33,636 nt of DNA from Fibrobacter sp. Lineage in GTDB: Bacteria > Fibrobacterota > Fibrobacteria > Fibrobacterales > Fibrobacteraceae. Made by a program: the position numbers and the translations under genes. This document shows positions 2,328-17,635 of this stretch, in pieces; the stretch's first letter is position 1; every line of letters starts with the position of its first letter. The notes below the pieces were generated by a model that made no database searches, had not been told where the DNA came from, and saw only the letters and a list, made by a program, of their open reading frames with translations. The stretch is from the NCBI GenBank assembly GCA_031271785.1, contig JAISUZ010000005.1:1-33636 (forward strand). Reading direction: 5' to 3'.

Positions 2328-5300
2328 ATGAAAAAGTTAAAACCGATCCCTTTTTTGGGGCTTCTCCTGCTCGCCCTTTCCTCTTGTACCAAATCCGGGA
2401 GTCCGATCCCGTCGGTGGAGCCTTCTAATCATTCTTCGGCGCCGAATGCCGGAGTTTCCGCTTTCCGTATTTCCGATCTACCTTCCGAAAGTGAAGAAGT
2501 ATTTGCGTTTCACCGTAACGCCTTCTCTTTTAAAGTCGAAGACCTTTCCTGGAAAAGCGTCGGGGATAATGCCGATACGCTCGCTCCTCTCGAATTTTAT
2601 CAGGAAAAAAACGGACTCCGGGCGGTGATCAATGCCGTGAAGCTTTCCGGGAACGATGATATTTCTTTAGTGGAGCTCGCCCGCGCCGAAATGCAGGCGT
2701 ATGAATCTTCGGTAGAAGATATGAAACACTCGGAAGTGGTTCCCCGGGAACTTTTCGGCGTTCTCGGTGTTTGGTGGGAGACTTCCGGAAAGAATACCGG
2801 CGGGGTAACGCAAGCGGCGGGTTTTGTTTTTTCCGCCGGCGATGAACTTTTTTATTTAACGCTTTCTACTTCGGATTCTTTGCGGAGTACCGAAATTTTT
2901 GCGGCAATCTGGAAAGATTTTTTTGCGGCGTTTGAACTGAAGGCTTCTTTAAGAACGCCGCCGTCTTCGGAACTTTCCAAAGAGATCGTGACTTTATTCC
3001 GTTCGGCGGATTACGCTTACCGCTGGAGTGTTAAGGATTCGCTTTGGTATCATTGGAAGAGTGTCGCGCATCAGAATCAAGATCCGGATTTAATTCTTTC
3101 CGATAAATCGGAAGAGGCGGCGTTTGCCGTTTACGGCGTTTATGTTTCTCCGGATGAAGTTTCTTCGCAGGATCTTTTCAAGGTGTTCCTGATTCGCCTT
3201 GGGATAGACCCCAATGATTCGCGCTTGAAAACGAACCGTTTGCGCGGCGGCACGCCGCAGCAATATACTCAGGATTTTGAGATTGTTTTTGATATCAGCG
3301 GTTTTGATTTTCATTATCAGGGGCGTTATTTCTGGGACAACGGGAGAGGTGTTTTGGCTGCCGGTTGGACGCAGGCGGTTCTTTATTCCAAATACCGGAA
3401 AGCAATTCAAAATGCGGTGCAGGGAGTGGTTCTTGAAACGGCGGTGTCGGCGGCGGAAACCAAAAAACAGCAGAAATTCGGCGCTGTGGTGCTGAATCAA
3501 ATCGGACTTTTGCGGCTCGTGGAGGGCGAACCTCTCGTGGCTTTGAGTTATTTTGAAAAGGCAAATCGTTTGGACCCGGAAGAACCTTTGTACTTAATCA
3601 ACTGCGGTTTTGTTTATCAGCAAAAAATGCTTTACGGCCCGGGTATCAGTCATTTTCAGGCGCAAATCGAACTGGTGAAAAAAAGCGCGCATCTCCTGTA
3701 TATTTTAGGCGCGATGTATGAAGTGATTCACGATTACGGAAACGCCCGGAAGTACGCCGAAGCGGCTCTCGAATTTATACCGAACGCACCCGAATACACC
3801 ATCAATTTAAGCGATGCGCTTTGGGGGCTCGGGCAGCGGAACAGTTCACTTCTTGTGGTGAGGAATTTATATCAAAAGCAACCCTCCGCCCGTCTCGGTA
3901 TTTATTTGGCGAAAACCTATATGGGTCTTGACCATTATGCGGAAGGCGTGGAAGTATTGTACGATGTGCGCCGCCGGTTTTCCATGAGTACGGATTTGGG
4001 GCTCACGCTTATGTCCGCTCTCGTTTTTCTAGGGCGTTACGAAGAAGCGCTCGCGGCGAGTGAAGAAACAATCCGGATGGCGCCGAAAGATTACCGCGTA
4101 CTCAGTTTGCGCGGAAAAATTCAGTTTTACCTGAAAAATTTCAAGGAAGCCGAAAAAACGTTAACGCGTGCTCTCGATTTAAAACCCGATGATGAAACCG
4201 CGAGAAGTTTTCTCTCCGCTTCGCAGGCGTTTCTCGGGAAAGCCGATAACCGGGCGATTCAAAAACCCATTACTCCGGTAGAAGCCGCTCCGGAAAATTT
4301 GAAATCGCTTCTTTCTAAAAATACCGCCGCCGAGGCGCGTCAAAAAGGGTATCCGGCGGCGGTGCATTGGACACGCGAAGCGCTTCGCGCGGAAAAAGGA
4401 AAGCCCTGGGTGCGCTCCGAACAACTTCTCATGGAAGTTTTAGATGAGCGCGGAGCCGCTATTTACAGCGAGTTCGGTTTTACTTTCCTGCCGGGGTTTG
4501 ACCGTATTTATTTGAACGCGCTGAACGTTTACGATTCTACCCTGAAACTCAAACATTCCTTTTCTCTGCAAAACGCTTACATTACTTATGCAACGGAACT
4601 CGGGACAAGCAACGAATCGCAGAGAGCGCATTTCCCGCTCCCGGCGCTTGCTCCCGGAGATTTCATTTATCTGCATCTTTCGAGAACCAATTTGGACGGC
4701 CGCGATGTGATTCCGTTTACGGATTATGTTTCAAGCCGGGAAATTCCGGTGGGCGTTTCTTCGTTCCGGATTTACGCGGACACATCCCGCTTTGTCGCCG
4801 AAGAATACGGGCCTTTGGAACGCACTGTTTTTGAAAACGGAAAAGAATGGCGCATTGAAAATCCGGTGGTGATCCGCAATGAATTGTTTATGCCGGTTTA
4901 CCGGGATTTCGGCGCGGGGCTTATGCTCACCGGAAAGGAAAAATGGGCGGAAGTCGGGCGCGATTATGAAAATCTGATTCGCCACCAGTTCAAAAATGCG
5001 GTCGCCGTGCGTGAAAAAGCTTTTGAAGTGAGCGGGAATAAAATCGGGAAAGAAGCGGTTCTCGTAGTGGTGCGCTGGGTGCGTGAGAATATTCGTTACC
5101 GGGATGTTCCGTTCGGAGGGCATTCCCTGATTCCTCAGCTTTCCGAAGTGACGCTCAAAGAGTATCGCGGCGATTGTAAAGATCAAAGTTTGCTTTTGAA
5201 AGAAATGCTTGCAACGATCGGCGTGCCGAGTTATTTGGCGGCGATTCATTTGTCGGAAATGGGATATGAAAATCTGCCTACTATTCAGCAGTTCAATCAC

Positions 5301-6124: not shown

Positions 6125-6198
<74 letters not shown>

Positions 6199-12132: not shown

Positions 12133-12283
12133 GCGTGAGGGATCGTGACCCGAAGGGCGGAGACGCGCGGATTCATCGAGGATTCCGGTTCCTGTTGGTT
12201 CCGCGCGGCTCCGTTTTTGCCGGCAACTTGTTGCCGCAAAAATACAGCCCGACCCGCCCGTTGAAAACGGGCGCGGGCACGCC
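12133..12283 (-). repeat. Dispersed repeat R3, copy C
   Basis: On the minus strand it starts GGCGTGCCCGCGCCC and ends CCCTCACGC. Shared blocks with 16281-16411 are CGGGCTGTATTTTTGCGGCA, GCAAAAACGGAGCCGCGCGG, CCGGAATC, TCCGCCC and GGGTCAC. The blocks are conserved and the linkers vary. It lies 75 bp before the TonB-system operon. Confidence 0.85.
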
Positions 12284-13138: not shown

Positions 13139-14602
13139 ATGAAAATACTTTCGGCTCTTTTCTTTCTTTTGATCGCCTGTTCCGGTGTTTTTGCCCAGCA
13201 GAATTCCGGAGATGCTTTGGTGAAAGCCCGCGCTGAATTGAACAGCGCCAAGGCGGATTTGGAAGATGCGCGCAAAAAACGGGATATGGCGGTCGCGGCT
13301 CGCTGGAAAGACCGTGAAACGGCGAACCAGGAACGCGAACTTTTTAACGAACGTTACAGCGAAAACAAAGAAAAGCTGGACGCTCTTATGGCGGAACGTT
13401 CGCGCCTTCAGGAAGAAGTACGCATGGGGCGTGAAGATTTGTCGCAGCTTCGGGAAGCCGCCGATCGGTCGCGCGCGGAATTTCTCGCTCTCTCTTCGCA
13501 GCAGGAACGCCTTAATTTTTTAACGCAGGCGCAGGACCAGGGGATTCCGTTCCGCATTCCGGAACGCCTCGAACGTGTGAATCAGGTCAAAAAAGATATC
13601 GAACGCTACGGAGATGATCCGCTCAAAGTCGCGCAGGAAATTTTCACGCTTACTCAAGAAGAAATCCGGTTTACCCGGGCGGTGGAATTTGAAACCGGCG
13701 AACTCCTTTTCGATCATTCTTTGCTTTACGGCAAACGCCTTCGCTTAGGGGGTATTTTTGCAGTTCAGGAAGCCGATAACGCCGGACCGGTGGCGCTCAT
13801 GCTCCCGACCGCAGGTGAAAAAGGGCGGAAGTTTGTTTGGCAGGTGAACGCGGCTCCGGAAATCCGTGAAGCGGTGGAAACGGCTTTTCGCTCTTATGCG
13901 GATTCCGCCTGGGTCATGGTGCCGGTGGACGCGCTTTTAAGTACGGCGCTTTCTTCGGAAATGGCGCAGACGACCGTTTCCTGGAAACAGAATCTGCGCG
14001 ACTTTTTCCGTAACGGCGGGCTTTTAATGTACCCGATCGCGTTTCTTTTCGTTGTGGGGCTTCTCATTGTGGCGGAACGCTACGCGCGGCTCTCGGCGAA
14101 AAACAGAACCGGCCGTTACCGTGAAGTGCTTATGCTTTGCGAAGCCGGAGACATTGCGGCCGCGAAAGAGCGGGCAAAGAATCTTCGCGGTTCGGTGGGG
14201 CTCCTCATTCAAAAAACGCTTTCCAAAGATTATCCGAACCGTGCGGCCGCGGAAAAAGCCATGGAAGAAGTCTTTGCCTCGGAAGTTCCCGCCATTGAGC
14301 GCGGGCTCTCCACGATTTCCGTCTTTGCCACCACGGCCCCTTTACTCGGGCTTCTCGGCACCGTCATGGGAATGGTGGAACTCTTTGAAGTCATCACCAT
14401 GCACGGCACTTCCGACCCGAAACTCCTCGCTTCCGGTATTTCAATCGCTCTTATCACCACCGAAGCGGGTTTGATGGTCGCGATTCCGCTCCAGTTTTTG
14501 CATACGTTCCTCACGAATAAAGCGGACAGGCTCGTGGCGAAAATGGAAAAAACCGGACTTGCCTTATTGAACGCCTTATGGATCAAGGACTCCAATGATT
14601 GA
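13139..14602 (+). CDS. TtpC-like long ExbB (MotA/TolQ/ExbB family)
   Basis: The 487-residue product has a signal peptide (MKILSALFFLLIACSGVFA), a periplasmic coiled coil (about 20-140, e.g. RAELNSAKADLEDARKKRDM), a beta-rich segment to about 280, and then a MotA/TolQ/ExbB module with membrane segments near 292-315, 391-418 and 429-458 (LLGLLGTVMGMVELF and TTEAGLMVAIPLQ are family signatures). In Vibrio TonB2 systems the equivalent TtpC is required for energy transfer to TonB; the same role is inferred here. GGAGGG lies 10 nt before the start, inside the preceding gene. The stop overlaps the next start. Confidence 0.9.
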   Translation: MKILSALFFLLIACSGVFAQQNSGDALVKARAELNSAKADLEDARKKRDMAVAARWKDRETANQERELFNERYSENKEKLDALMAERSRLQEEVRMGREDLSQLREAADRSRAEFLALSSQQERLNFLTQAQDQGIPFRIPERLERVNQVKKDIERYGDDPLKVAQEIFTLTQEEIRFTRAVEFETGELLFDHSLLYGKRLRLGGIFAVQEADNAGPVALMLPTAGEKGRKFVWQVNAAPEIREAVETAFRSYADSAWVMVPVDALLSTALSSEMAQTTVSWKQNLRDFFRNGGLLMYPIAFLFVVGLLIVAERYARLSAKNRTGRYREVLMLCEAGDIAAAKERAKNLRGSVGLLIQKTLSKDYPNRAAAEKAMEEVFASEVPAIERGLSTISVFATTAPLLGLLGTVMGMVELFEVITMHGTSDPKLLASGISIALITTEAGLMVAIPLQFLHTFLTNKADRLVAKMEKTGLALLNALWIKDSND

Positions 14603-15224: not shown

Positions 15225-15625
15225 GTTTTATCCGAAAGCGCAAACGACATACGAGCTTTATCGACGTATCTCCCATGATGGACATGGTGTTCATCTTGCT
15301 CATCTTCTTTATCGTGACCTCCACATTCACGCGGGAAACCGGCATCGACGTCACCAAACCCAAAGCGAGCACCTCCAAAGAACTCGCGCGGGAAAGCATA
15401 ATGATCGGCATTTCGCGGCAGGGGACCATTCACATCAACGAAACGCAAGTGAATTTATCTTCACTTCAAACCATCTTAAAACAAATGATGGCGGAATCTC
15501 CGGATCGCCCGGTCGTGATCGTCTCCGACCGTGACGCCCCCTCCGGCCGCATTGTCGATGTGCTCGACGAATGTAACCAGGCCAAAGTGCGGAAAGTATC
15601 GGTATCTGCGTTGAGGGACGATTGA
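15221..15625 (+). CDS. exbD: ExbD/TolR-family motor subunit
   Basis: The 134-residue product has a short basic cytoplasmic N-terminus, a single membrane segment (SPMMDMVFILLIFFIVTSTF) with the essential proton-carrying Asp21, and a periplasmic TolR/ExbD domain ending SDRDAPSGRIVDVLDE. Its start overlaps ExbB as ATGA with AGGAG 8 nt before it, which indicates translational coupling. It works with the upstream ExbB to harvest the proton motive force. Confidence 0.94.
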   Translation: MSFIRKRKRHTSFIDVSPMMDMVFILLIFFIVTSTFTRETGIDVTKPKASTSKELARESIMIGISRQGTIHINETQVNLSSLQTILKQMMAESPDRPVVIVSDRDAPSGRIVDVLDECNQAKVRKVSVSALRDD

Positions 15626-16257
15626 AAATTCTGACGGCAGCTCGGTTTCCGGCGGTACTCGTACTTGCGTTTTTGGTGAACGCCGCTTTTTTTCTCGCGG
15701 TGCCTGTCGTAAACGCGCTCTTTTTTTCGCAGAAAACGGAAAAGAAAACGGTTACGGTCGAACTCACGGAAACAGAAGTCGTGGTTCAGGAAAAAAAACA
15801 GGAACAACCTCAAAAAGTGATCCGCCAAATCTCGCAGCCGAACCGTTTTAGAGCGAATCAAAGCATGGGAAACACGCGCTCCCGCGGGTTCCAAATGGAT
15901 CTCTCCCTCGCCCGCGGCGATTTCGGAGACGGTGTGGCGGTGGGCGGCGGCGGACTTGAAAATGTGATTTACGACGTAGGCGAAGTCGATGAAGACGCCC
16001 GCGTACTCAAAGAAGTCAACCCCAATTACCCGGATCGCGCCAAAAAAATGGGCGTCTCGGGCTATGTCAAAATTTACCTCGTAATCGACGTCTATGGAAA
16101 TATTTCGCAAGCGGAAGTCATTCAAGTCGATCCGCCCGGTTACGGCTTTGAAACCGAAGCGCTCGCCGCCATCCGGCAATGGAAATTCGAACCCGCAAAA
16201 CTCGGGAACCTCCCGGTAGCTCAAAAAGCCACAAAGGAGTTCCGTTTTGTACAATAA
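15622..16257 (+). CDS. tonB: TonB energy transducer
   Basis: The 211-residue product has an N-terminal membrane anchor (about 8-35), a short charged Glu/Lys/Gln/Pro linker (VVVQEKKQEQPQKVIRQ) and a C-terminal TonB domain (about 125-211): NPNYPDRAKKMGVSGYVKI, VDPPGYGFETEALAAIRQWK and FEPAK. The linker is shorter than in enterobacterial TonB, as in TonB2 proteins. It should carry energy to outer-membrane TonB-dependent receptors, none of which is encoded here. The start is a TTG overlapping the ExbD stop (TTGA), with GAGGG 4 nt before it. Confidence 0.92.
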   Translation: MKILTAARFPAVLVLAFLVNAAFFLAVPVVNALFFSQKTEKKTVTVELTETEVVVQEKKQEQPQKVIRQISQPNRFRANQSMGNTRSRGFQMDLSLARGDFGDGVAVGGGGLENVIYDVGEVDEDARVLKEVNPNYPDRAKKMGVSGYVKIYLVIDVYGNISQAEVIQVDPPGYGFETEALAAIRQWKFEPAKLGNLPVAQKATKEFRFVQ

Positions 16258-17635
16258 AATCCGGAAATTTTTTGATTTGGGGCGTGTCCGCCTTGCGGCG
16301 GCCGGGCTGTATTTTTGCGGCAGCAAGCGGCCTGCAAAAACGGAGCCGCGCGGCTCTTCACCGGAATCTGCTTTCCGCGCCTCCGCCCGTACGGGTCACC
16401 ATCCCTCACGCATACTTCGGAAAACCAGGAATGGTAAACAGGGAATAGGGATTTGGGAATGGGGAATGGACAAAGGGCAAGACGATTCGGTTTACCAGGA
16501 ATTCCTGTCCGGTCCTGTACAAAGATATACCGGCATGGTCGAGTTTTCCAAGCAGGTACAGCAACCTGATCGGGAACAGTACTGCTCCCGCCGTTCTGAA
16601 CGCACTTGTCATCCTGAACTTGTTTCAGGATCAACATCCAGACTCCAAACCAAATCCTGTACCTTATCCCTTGTCCCAAGCGTACTACTCTGCCTTCTTT
16701 TTGCCGTATCGTCATTCGCCGAAGACTATTTTAAAAAAGCAAACGAACTCTACGACCGGGGGAATTTCCGGGAAGCGGTCGCCTTTTACCGGGCAGCCAT
16801 CCGTGAAGAACAATACGAACCCTTCGCGTGGTTTAATTTAGGCAACACACTCGTACACCTCGGGCGCAATGAAGTTGCGCTCACGGCTTACAAACGCGCC
16901 GCGGAACTCATGCCGGACCTCACCAAAGCGTGGCAGCTCATGGGAGACATCTATTATTTGGGCGGCAATCTCGGAGAAGCGATGGTCGCTTACCACCGGG
17001 CGCTCGAACTCGGCGAAGACTCGGACCACCTGCACTTTGCGCTCGCGGAATGTTATTTAAAAGGGCGTGACTTTACGCTCGCGCAAAAGCATTTTGAGCG
17101 CGCCGTTTACCTGAACCCCGACAGAATGGACGCCTGGTATGGACTTGCGGAAGTTTACGAGAAACTCGGGTATTACGAATACGCATTGAAAACCCTGAAA
17201 AACGCGCTTCAACTCACGGTAAGCGCGGGCGCGGATGTGTATTTCACCATTTCCCACTATTACACAAAAATGGATTCCACGCGGAAAGCCTTAAACGCCA
17301 TGGAAGACGGCCTCTTGATTCAACCGGAAAACGCCGATGCCCGCCGTTATTTGGCGCAAATGTACTTGCGTGCGGAATCGCCGTGGATGGCTATTTTTGT
17401 ATTGGAAGAAGGTTTAAACTATAAAAAAAACGTGCGTGAACTCGAAGTTGATTTAGGCTTGATTTACTTTGAGCAAAAGCGTTACGATGAAGCCTTTGAA
17501 TATTTCCTTTCCGCTTACCGAAAAGGGAGTGCGGAAGGCCGGCTCGGCGCGGAAAATGTCGGCAATATTTGGTATAACGCCGGCGATTTGGAACGCGCCG
17601 AACGGGTCTATCAACGGATTCGAGAAAAAAAGTAG
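16247..17635 (+). CDS. TPR protein of the TonB2-type operon, with repeat-derived N-terminal extension
   Basis: Residues 159-462 contain TPR repeats (AFYRAAIREEQYEPFAWFNL, VALTAYKRAAELMPDLTKAW and further units), as in the TPR partner that closes TonB2/TtpC operons. A signal-like hydrophobic stretch covers residues 139-158 (TLSLVPSVLLCLLFAVSSFA), so the TPR part is probably periplasmic. The TTG at 16247 overlaps tonB by 11 bp and has AAAGGAG 7 nt before it, but between it and the signal lie about 130 residues encoded by repeat R3 copy D, low-complexity DNA and a palindrome. An in-frame ATG at 16535 could start a shorter form; no ATG, GTG or TTG lies closer to the signal. Confidence 0.78.
   Translation: MYNKIRKFFDLGRVRLAAAGLYFCGSKRPAKTEPRGSSPESAFRASARTGHHPSRILRKTRNGKQGIGIWEWGMDKGQDDSVYQEFLSGPVQRYTGMVEFSKQVQQPDREQYCSRRSERTCHPELVSGSTSRLQTKSCTLSLVPSVLLCLLFAVSSFAEDYFKKANELYDRGNFREAVAFYRAAIREEQYEPFAWFNLGNTLVHLGRNEVALTAYKRAAELMPDLTKAWQLMGDIYYLGGNLGEAMVAYHRALELGEDSDHLHFALAECYLKGRDFTLAQKHFERAVYLNPDRMDAWYGLAEVYEKLGYYEYALKTLKNALQLTVSAGADVYFTISHYYTKMDSTRKALNAMEDGLLIQPENADARRYLAQMYLRAESPWMAIFVLEEGLNYKKNVRELEVDLGLIYFEQKRYDEAFEYFLSAYRKGSAEGRLGAENVGNIWYNAGDLERAERVYQRIREKK
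16281..16411 (+). repeat. Dispersed repeat R3, copy D
   Basis: This is the inverted partner of 12133-12283. It starts GGCGTGTCCGCC and ends ATCCCTCACGC. It lies within the open frame of the TPR gene just past the tonB stop, and is read without a stop codon in that frame. Confidence 0.85.
16608..16632. repeat. Palindromic repeat unit (CCTGAA/TTCAGG hairpin)
   Basis: A 25-bp palindrome-like unit has arms GTCATCCTGAA and TTCAGGATC around a short loop. This resembles widely dispersed intergenic palindromes of many bacteria. In the TPR frame it encodes HPELVSGS (from residue 122). Confidence 0.7.

Follow-up and report, generated by a model that had tools for sequence, protein, structure and literature searches.

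Dispersed repeats appear to insert in frame between the overlapping TTG start and the signal peptide of a TPR gene in Fibrobacteraceae

The window, as we call the whole 33,636-nt stretch of DNA analysed, lies on contig C90 of a 112-contig Fibrobacteraceae assembly (genome G000). Between 12358 and 17635 it carries an operon in which Pfam matches (DUF3450, MotA_ExbB twice, ExbD, TonB_C and TPR) give the order DUF3450, DUF3450-MotA/ExbB, ExbB, ExbD, TonB, TPR. Presumably this is an operon of the TonB2/TtpC type, whose gene content and order are the same. We know of no in-frame repeat insertion in such operons, and none was found in the literature searched. The operon's second secreted gene, DUF3450-MotA/ExbB (13139–14602; this and all other features are on the plus strand unless stated), was recognized through Pfam, and its window copy is free of inserts. 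A tRNA gene (6125–6197, minus strand; RF00005, 70.8 bits) is the only match to a known RNA family that Rfam returned when the window and other stretches were searched.

The tonB gene (15622–16257; TonB_C, 1.4e-16) ends with a stop codon at 16255–16257. Within its last codons lies a Shine–Dalgarno sequence, AAGGAG (16234–16239), 7 nt before a TTG (16247–16249) that overlaps the tonB end and is conserved across the family as the start codon of the TPR gene. The frame is open from this TTG to the stop at 17635 (462 aa), and the mature TPR domain with its stop occupies 16721–17635 (Pfam TPR models; pLDDT mostly >94). The initial annotation had described just such a frame, leaving the TTG with a strong ribosome-binding site and passing through a dispersed repeat, low-complexity DNA and a palindrome into a hydrophobic signal-like stretch and TPR repeats; Pfam, hydropathy and a structure model agree with that description.

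The insert between start and signal is longer in the window than in any other member of the orthologue set, and is made up of a copy of the dispersed repeat R3, low-complexity DNA and a palindrome. R3 (16267–16424; query positions 11–168) is in frame as residues about 8–59 and matches about 48 places in the genome, one of them also inside the window (12133–12254, minus strand). It is followed by a G+A-rich low-complexity repeat, likewise in frame (16428–16465; query 172–209) and matching other loci of the genome, then by a segment for which the search of G000 gave no match (16466–16609), and finally by the 23-nt palindrome CATCCTGAACTTGTTTCAGGATC (16610–16632), which reads in frame as HPELVSGS. 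The palindrome has 45 copies in the genome at up to 3 mismatches, against 0 for a reversed-pattern control, and folds as a hairpin (z −2.73); among the 30 copies examined in G000, the window copy alone lies inside a conserved gene. The evidence of a palindromic nature concerns the CATCCTGAACTTGTTTCAGGATC unit, as distinct from R3 and the low-complexity parts. A further low-complexity repeat, TTATCCCTTGTCCC (16664–16677; 19 copies in G000 at up to 1 mismatch), forms the front of the signal. The signal peptide region (16670–16720, residues 142–158), supported by hydropathy, the model and orthologues, consists of a hydrophobic core (residues 142–155) and an AxA-like SFA cleavage motif followed by the TPR domain, and the model places a helix at residues 143–154. 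In-frame ATG, GTG or TTG codons ahead of the core occur only at 16247, 16277, 16466 and 16535, the last of them 45 residues before it. As first noticed in the initial annotation, the stretch from the palindrome to the core holds no such codon, and a shorter form from ATG 16535 would also contain HPELVSGS.

Taken alone, the open interval of the window has a P of about 0.005 (dinucleotide-block shuffles), and of the 18 other R3 copies, a third (6) are likewise open in that frame, for which reason R3 openness was rejected as evidence by itself. The window is therefore only suggestive on its own, and the comparative data supply the strength. An antisense gene as the cause of openness was also rejected, since the reverse frames of the inserts contain many stops at most loci. 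Two other R3 copies in this genome, L024 (contig C61) and L008 (contig C107), have frames open into an outer-membrane-protein-like and a ZIP-transporter-like gene, respectively, and these are possible further pre-signal inserts.

Orthologous tonB–TPR junctions were gathered from 96 family genomes. AAGGAG at 7 nt from the TTG is present in all 90 distinct orthologous starts, and the Glu codon within it reads GAG in 94 of 96, though tonB otherwise uses GAA for 72% of Glu; the internal starts of the window have SD matches of 3 nt only. In insert-free orthologues, the TTG overlapping the tonB stop runs straight into the signal peptide. A direct junction of start and signal in orthologues, the check proposed in advance for an insertion, was found as MFHKSSLLFLIICVCGIGSSASFA-DDFF in L040/L222 and as MLSRLLAVITLGAVASFA-AEDYF in L062/L223. 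In other species this TTG is separated from the signal by at least 12 kinds of insert, sorted by eye, which encode, for example, CHSRLDRES, CHCEPRRGVAI, CHSEPILRHSEPKAKN, RHSEANAEES, GHSRGTKCRRES, CHPGHRAG, CHSESKN, RLDERT..RRKTK, RGSRYEVALLAQG, SRSQVIGFRSQV and CGRGPSSELRRPHGPLPAPSPSLADA. Some kinds are common to many species, they are absent from many, and their sequences are unrelated between species. A 39-nt insert distinguishes L165 from L166/L151, a nearly clean empty/filled pair; among the genomes compared, none closely related to that of the window has the site empty.

At all 94 tonB–TPR loci the frame, followed from the mature domain upstream into tonB, stays open, and the distance is 1 mod 3 in every one. 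The 40 distinct intervals of at least 60 nt are all open, against 6.2 expected from shuffling, with 0, 86 and 86 stops in the coding, +1 and +2 frames, counts that come from loci of shared ancestry and hence are not phylogenetically independent. The original proposal that repeats inserted between start and signal and were kept in frame is supported by these open loci with their varied inserts, and the comparison refines it, since the sequences point to a recurrent insertion site rather than a one-off event and to a second operon gene affected in the same way. At the junction between DUF3450 and DUF3450-MotA, where an overlapping start also precedes a signal peptide, all 69 intervals are open (0, 155 and 107 stops in the coding, +1 and +2 frames) and the inserts form an assortment of their own, e.g., CHPERSAKRGVEGSS, HPERSEGSS and VILSEVEGS. 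The exbD–tonB junction, on the other hand, has inserts of similar size of which only 1 of 42 is open, with 113 in-frame stops; these inserts evidently precede the tonB start, and the junction offers, at the sequence level, a strong internal control. The contrast is drawn between junctions of the same genomes and so stands despite the shared ancestry of the counts. Inserts of comparable size are absent from the exbB–exbB and exbB–exbD junctions in most genomes. The exbD–tonB gaps of L166 (892 nt) and L192 (592 nt) are far longer than the rest.

Where two loci share the same type of insert, the insert DNA often shows much higher identity than the flanking genes: it is 100% identical in L210/L229 against 86–94% in the flanks. 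Across L210/L229 and L163/L174, insert DNA is 99–100% identical while flanking tonB and TPR differ by 6–15%. This likeness could reflect local recombination, recent spread or a constraint on the DNA as such, and the inserts may have moved or been converted as blocks.

Downstream of the inserts, the orthologues conserve (A/S/H)-x-A before E/D-D/Y-[FY], and the window protein has a hydrophobic core and an AxA-type cleavage site ahead of the mature protein, as expected of a Sec signal. The short positively charged n-region that insert-free orthologues have at the N-terminus is missing from that of the window protein, where 141 residues precede the core, and the signal peptide would thus be an internal one. 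Residues 11–139 are predicted to be disordered (pLDDT <50) with the TPR fold intact (mostly >94), and pN/pS is 0.69 for the insert peptide against 0.02 for the mature part. A leader of about 158 residues would presumably be made from the TTG, exported by Sec and cut off. A pre-signal leader of 158 residues far exceeds the usual length of a Sec signal, which counts against this explanation.

The reading that we favour, with a probability of about 0.85 on comparative grounds, is in-frame insertion of repeats between the overlapping TTG start and the signal of the TPR gene. The conserved start, the in-frame selection, the repeat nature of the inserts and the insert-free orthologues are direct support from the data; that the inserts are translated we infer from conservation, and how the repeats move is likewise a matter of interpretation. 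The TPR gene would be translated from a TTG lying, with its ribosome-binding site, within the tonB end, in translational overlap. Because of this placement, dispersed repeats landing just past the tonB stop would fall inside the TPR coding sequence, between start and signal. A stop within an insert, or a wrong insert length, would uncouple or destroy the gene, leaving in-frame inserts as the only survivors. Tolerance of these would follow from the nature of the added residues, which are disordered, weakly constrained and probably lost along with the signal peptide, so that the mature TPR protein stays the same.

A different account of the openness is possible, though we find it rather doubtful: the inserts would be open since ribosomes must cross them, for translational coupling, for mRNA stability or through effects of hairpins on operon expression, and the peptide would be irrelevant. 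RNA folding gives hairpins for the palindromes (z −2.7 and −3.1), and the low amino-acid constraint on the insert peptide relative to the mature part fits this account; the GC-rich element considered below, however, has no excess folding, and ribosome traverse is compatible with in-frame insertion.

The main rival, which we regard as unlikely, takes the insert as 5′ untranslated or leader DNA, with the TPR start downstream (ATG 16535 or 16466) and the long frame as an artefact of the annotation type. Internal ATG, GTG or TTG codons are present in most inserted loci, 10 of 37 long inserted loci have an internal start with an SD of at least 5 matches, and ATG 16535 could serve in the window. A downstream start was also the conclusion reached for P. 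putida, C. koseri and S. maltophilia (PMC3733652). It does not explain why the frame is open upstream of the internal starts in 94/94 loci while exbD–tonB inserts are open in 1/42. Moreover, the repeat-encoded CHSRLDRES of L188/L198/L199 lies 3′ of the last start, L156 is without any internal start and the window palindrome would be translated even from ATG 16535.

Far less probable still is a function of the insert peptides themselves, in targeting or membrane association, with the leader selected as protein: the inserts are always in frame and some types are common to many species, but insert sequences of different species are unrelated, many species lack them, and the peptides are predicted to be disordered and are weakly constrained at the amino-acid level. 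An assembly or chance artefact, which the 112 contigs and the P value of about 0.005 for the lone interval might invite, is refuted by the family comparison, where the pattern recurs in about 94 independent genomes, near-complete ones included.

In-frame palindromes extend beyond this operon. The Fibrobacter relative G033 has 76 copies of GTCATCCTGAGCGAAG, and of 30 examined, 6 besides that in the DUF3450-MotA gene are in frame within genes, a rate that comes from sampled copies and not from a genome-wide census. The genes, at loci L270, L271, L272, L279, L281 and L295, encode GluQRS, a membrane protein, a CehA-like protein, TilS, HemC and an RlmL-like protein, and alignments show the HemC and GluQRS inserts to be missing from other relatives; the phenomenon is therefore not limited to the TonB/TPR operon. 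The element encoding CHCEP folds as a hairpin (z −3.05). In L184, also of G033, a 69-nt GC-rich element, GGGCCCCAGCTCGGAGTTG...CCTTGGCCGACGC (5073–5141 of that stretch), belongs to a kind present in 48 of 111 family genomes, usually at 1–11 copies per genome, and almost invariant between species and copies. The L184 element has 11 near-identical copies in its own genome; Rfam gave no match to the element, its RNA folding shows no excess (z +0.7), and no clear intragenic insertion was seen among its other G033 copies.

Rickettsia is the best-known source of protein-coding palindromes; N-terminal examples from other bacteria have usually been dismissed as start-site artefacts. The Rickettsia palindromic elements (RPE) were reportedly described by Ogata et al. 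in 2000 and 2002. By their features, the TPR-leader inserts may be regarded as a Fibrobacter counterpart of these elements: both involve dispersed short palindromic repeats in frame in genes of conserved proteins, outside the folded core, with insert-free orthologues, and in Fibrobacter a unit of the insert folds as a hairpin. The likeness drawn here to the RPE, which are reviewed in PMC10969869, is one of features, and the phylum is a different one, Fibrobacterota. Unlike the RPE, many unrelated kinds of repeat, including non-palindromic and low-complexity ones, hit the start-to-signal interval repeatedly. Another resemblance is to intragenic REP elements, short palindromic repeats tagged with GTAG/CGTC, some of which lie within ORFs, many at N-termini; most N-terminal REPs were judged untranslated in the non-rickettsial species aligned there (PMC3733652). 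The window palindrome with its flanks, CTTGTCATCC...GGATCAAC, has neither a GTAG nor a CGTC tag, and palindrome copies of some relatives begin CGTCATCC. In contrast to those REPs, the conserved overlapping starts and the exbD–tonB control of Fibrobacter, together with the second gene, argue for translation in what amounts to a strong sequence-based test. In the literature searched, nothing relevant turned up on coding palindromes in Fibrobacter, on HPELVSGS or on repeats inserted ahead of a signal, an absence that is weak evidence.

Gene callers may trim the starts described here. The natural long leaders of these signal peptides are material for studying Sec export, and cultured Fibrobacter strains make translation of the inserts directly testable. 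Repeated in-frame insertion at the same secreted protein in these gut relatives of Fibrobacter suggests that selfish DNA can land safely inside genes at this leader region, and insertions seem to cluster in genes whose start codon overlaps the gene before it and whose added peptide should leave with the signal. We hypothesize, giving the idea even odds, that the interval from a translationally coupled start to the signal generally serves selfish DNA in Fibrobacteraceae as a safe harbour, where many repeat families would invade in frame, leaders of up to about 158 residues would be made, exported and cut off, and long "disposable" N-termini would be gained and lost with the mature protein unchanged.
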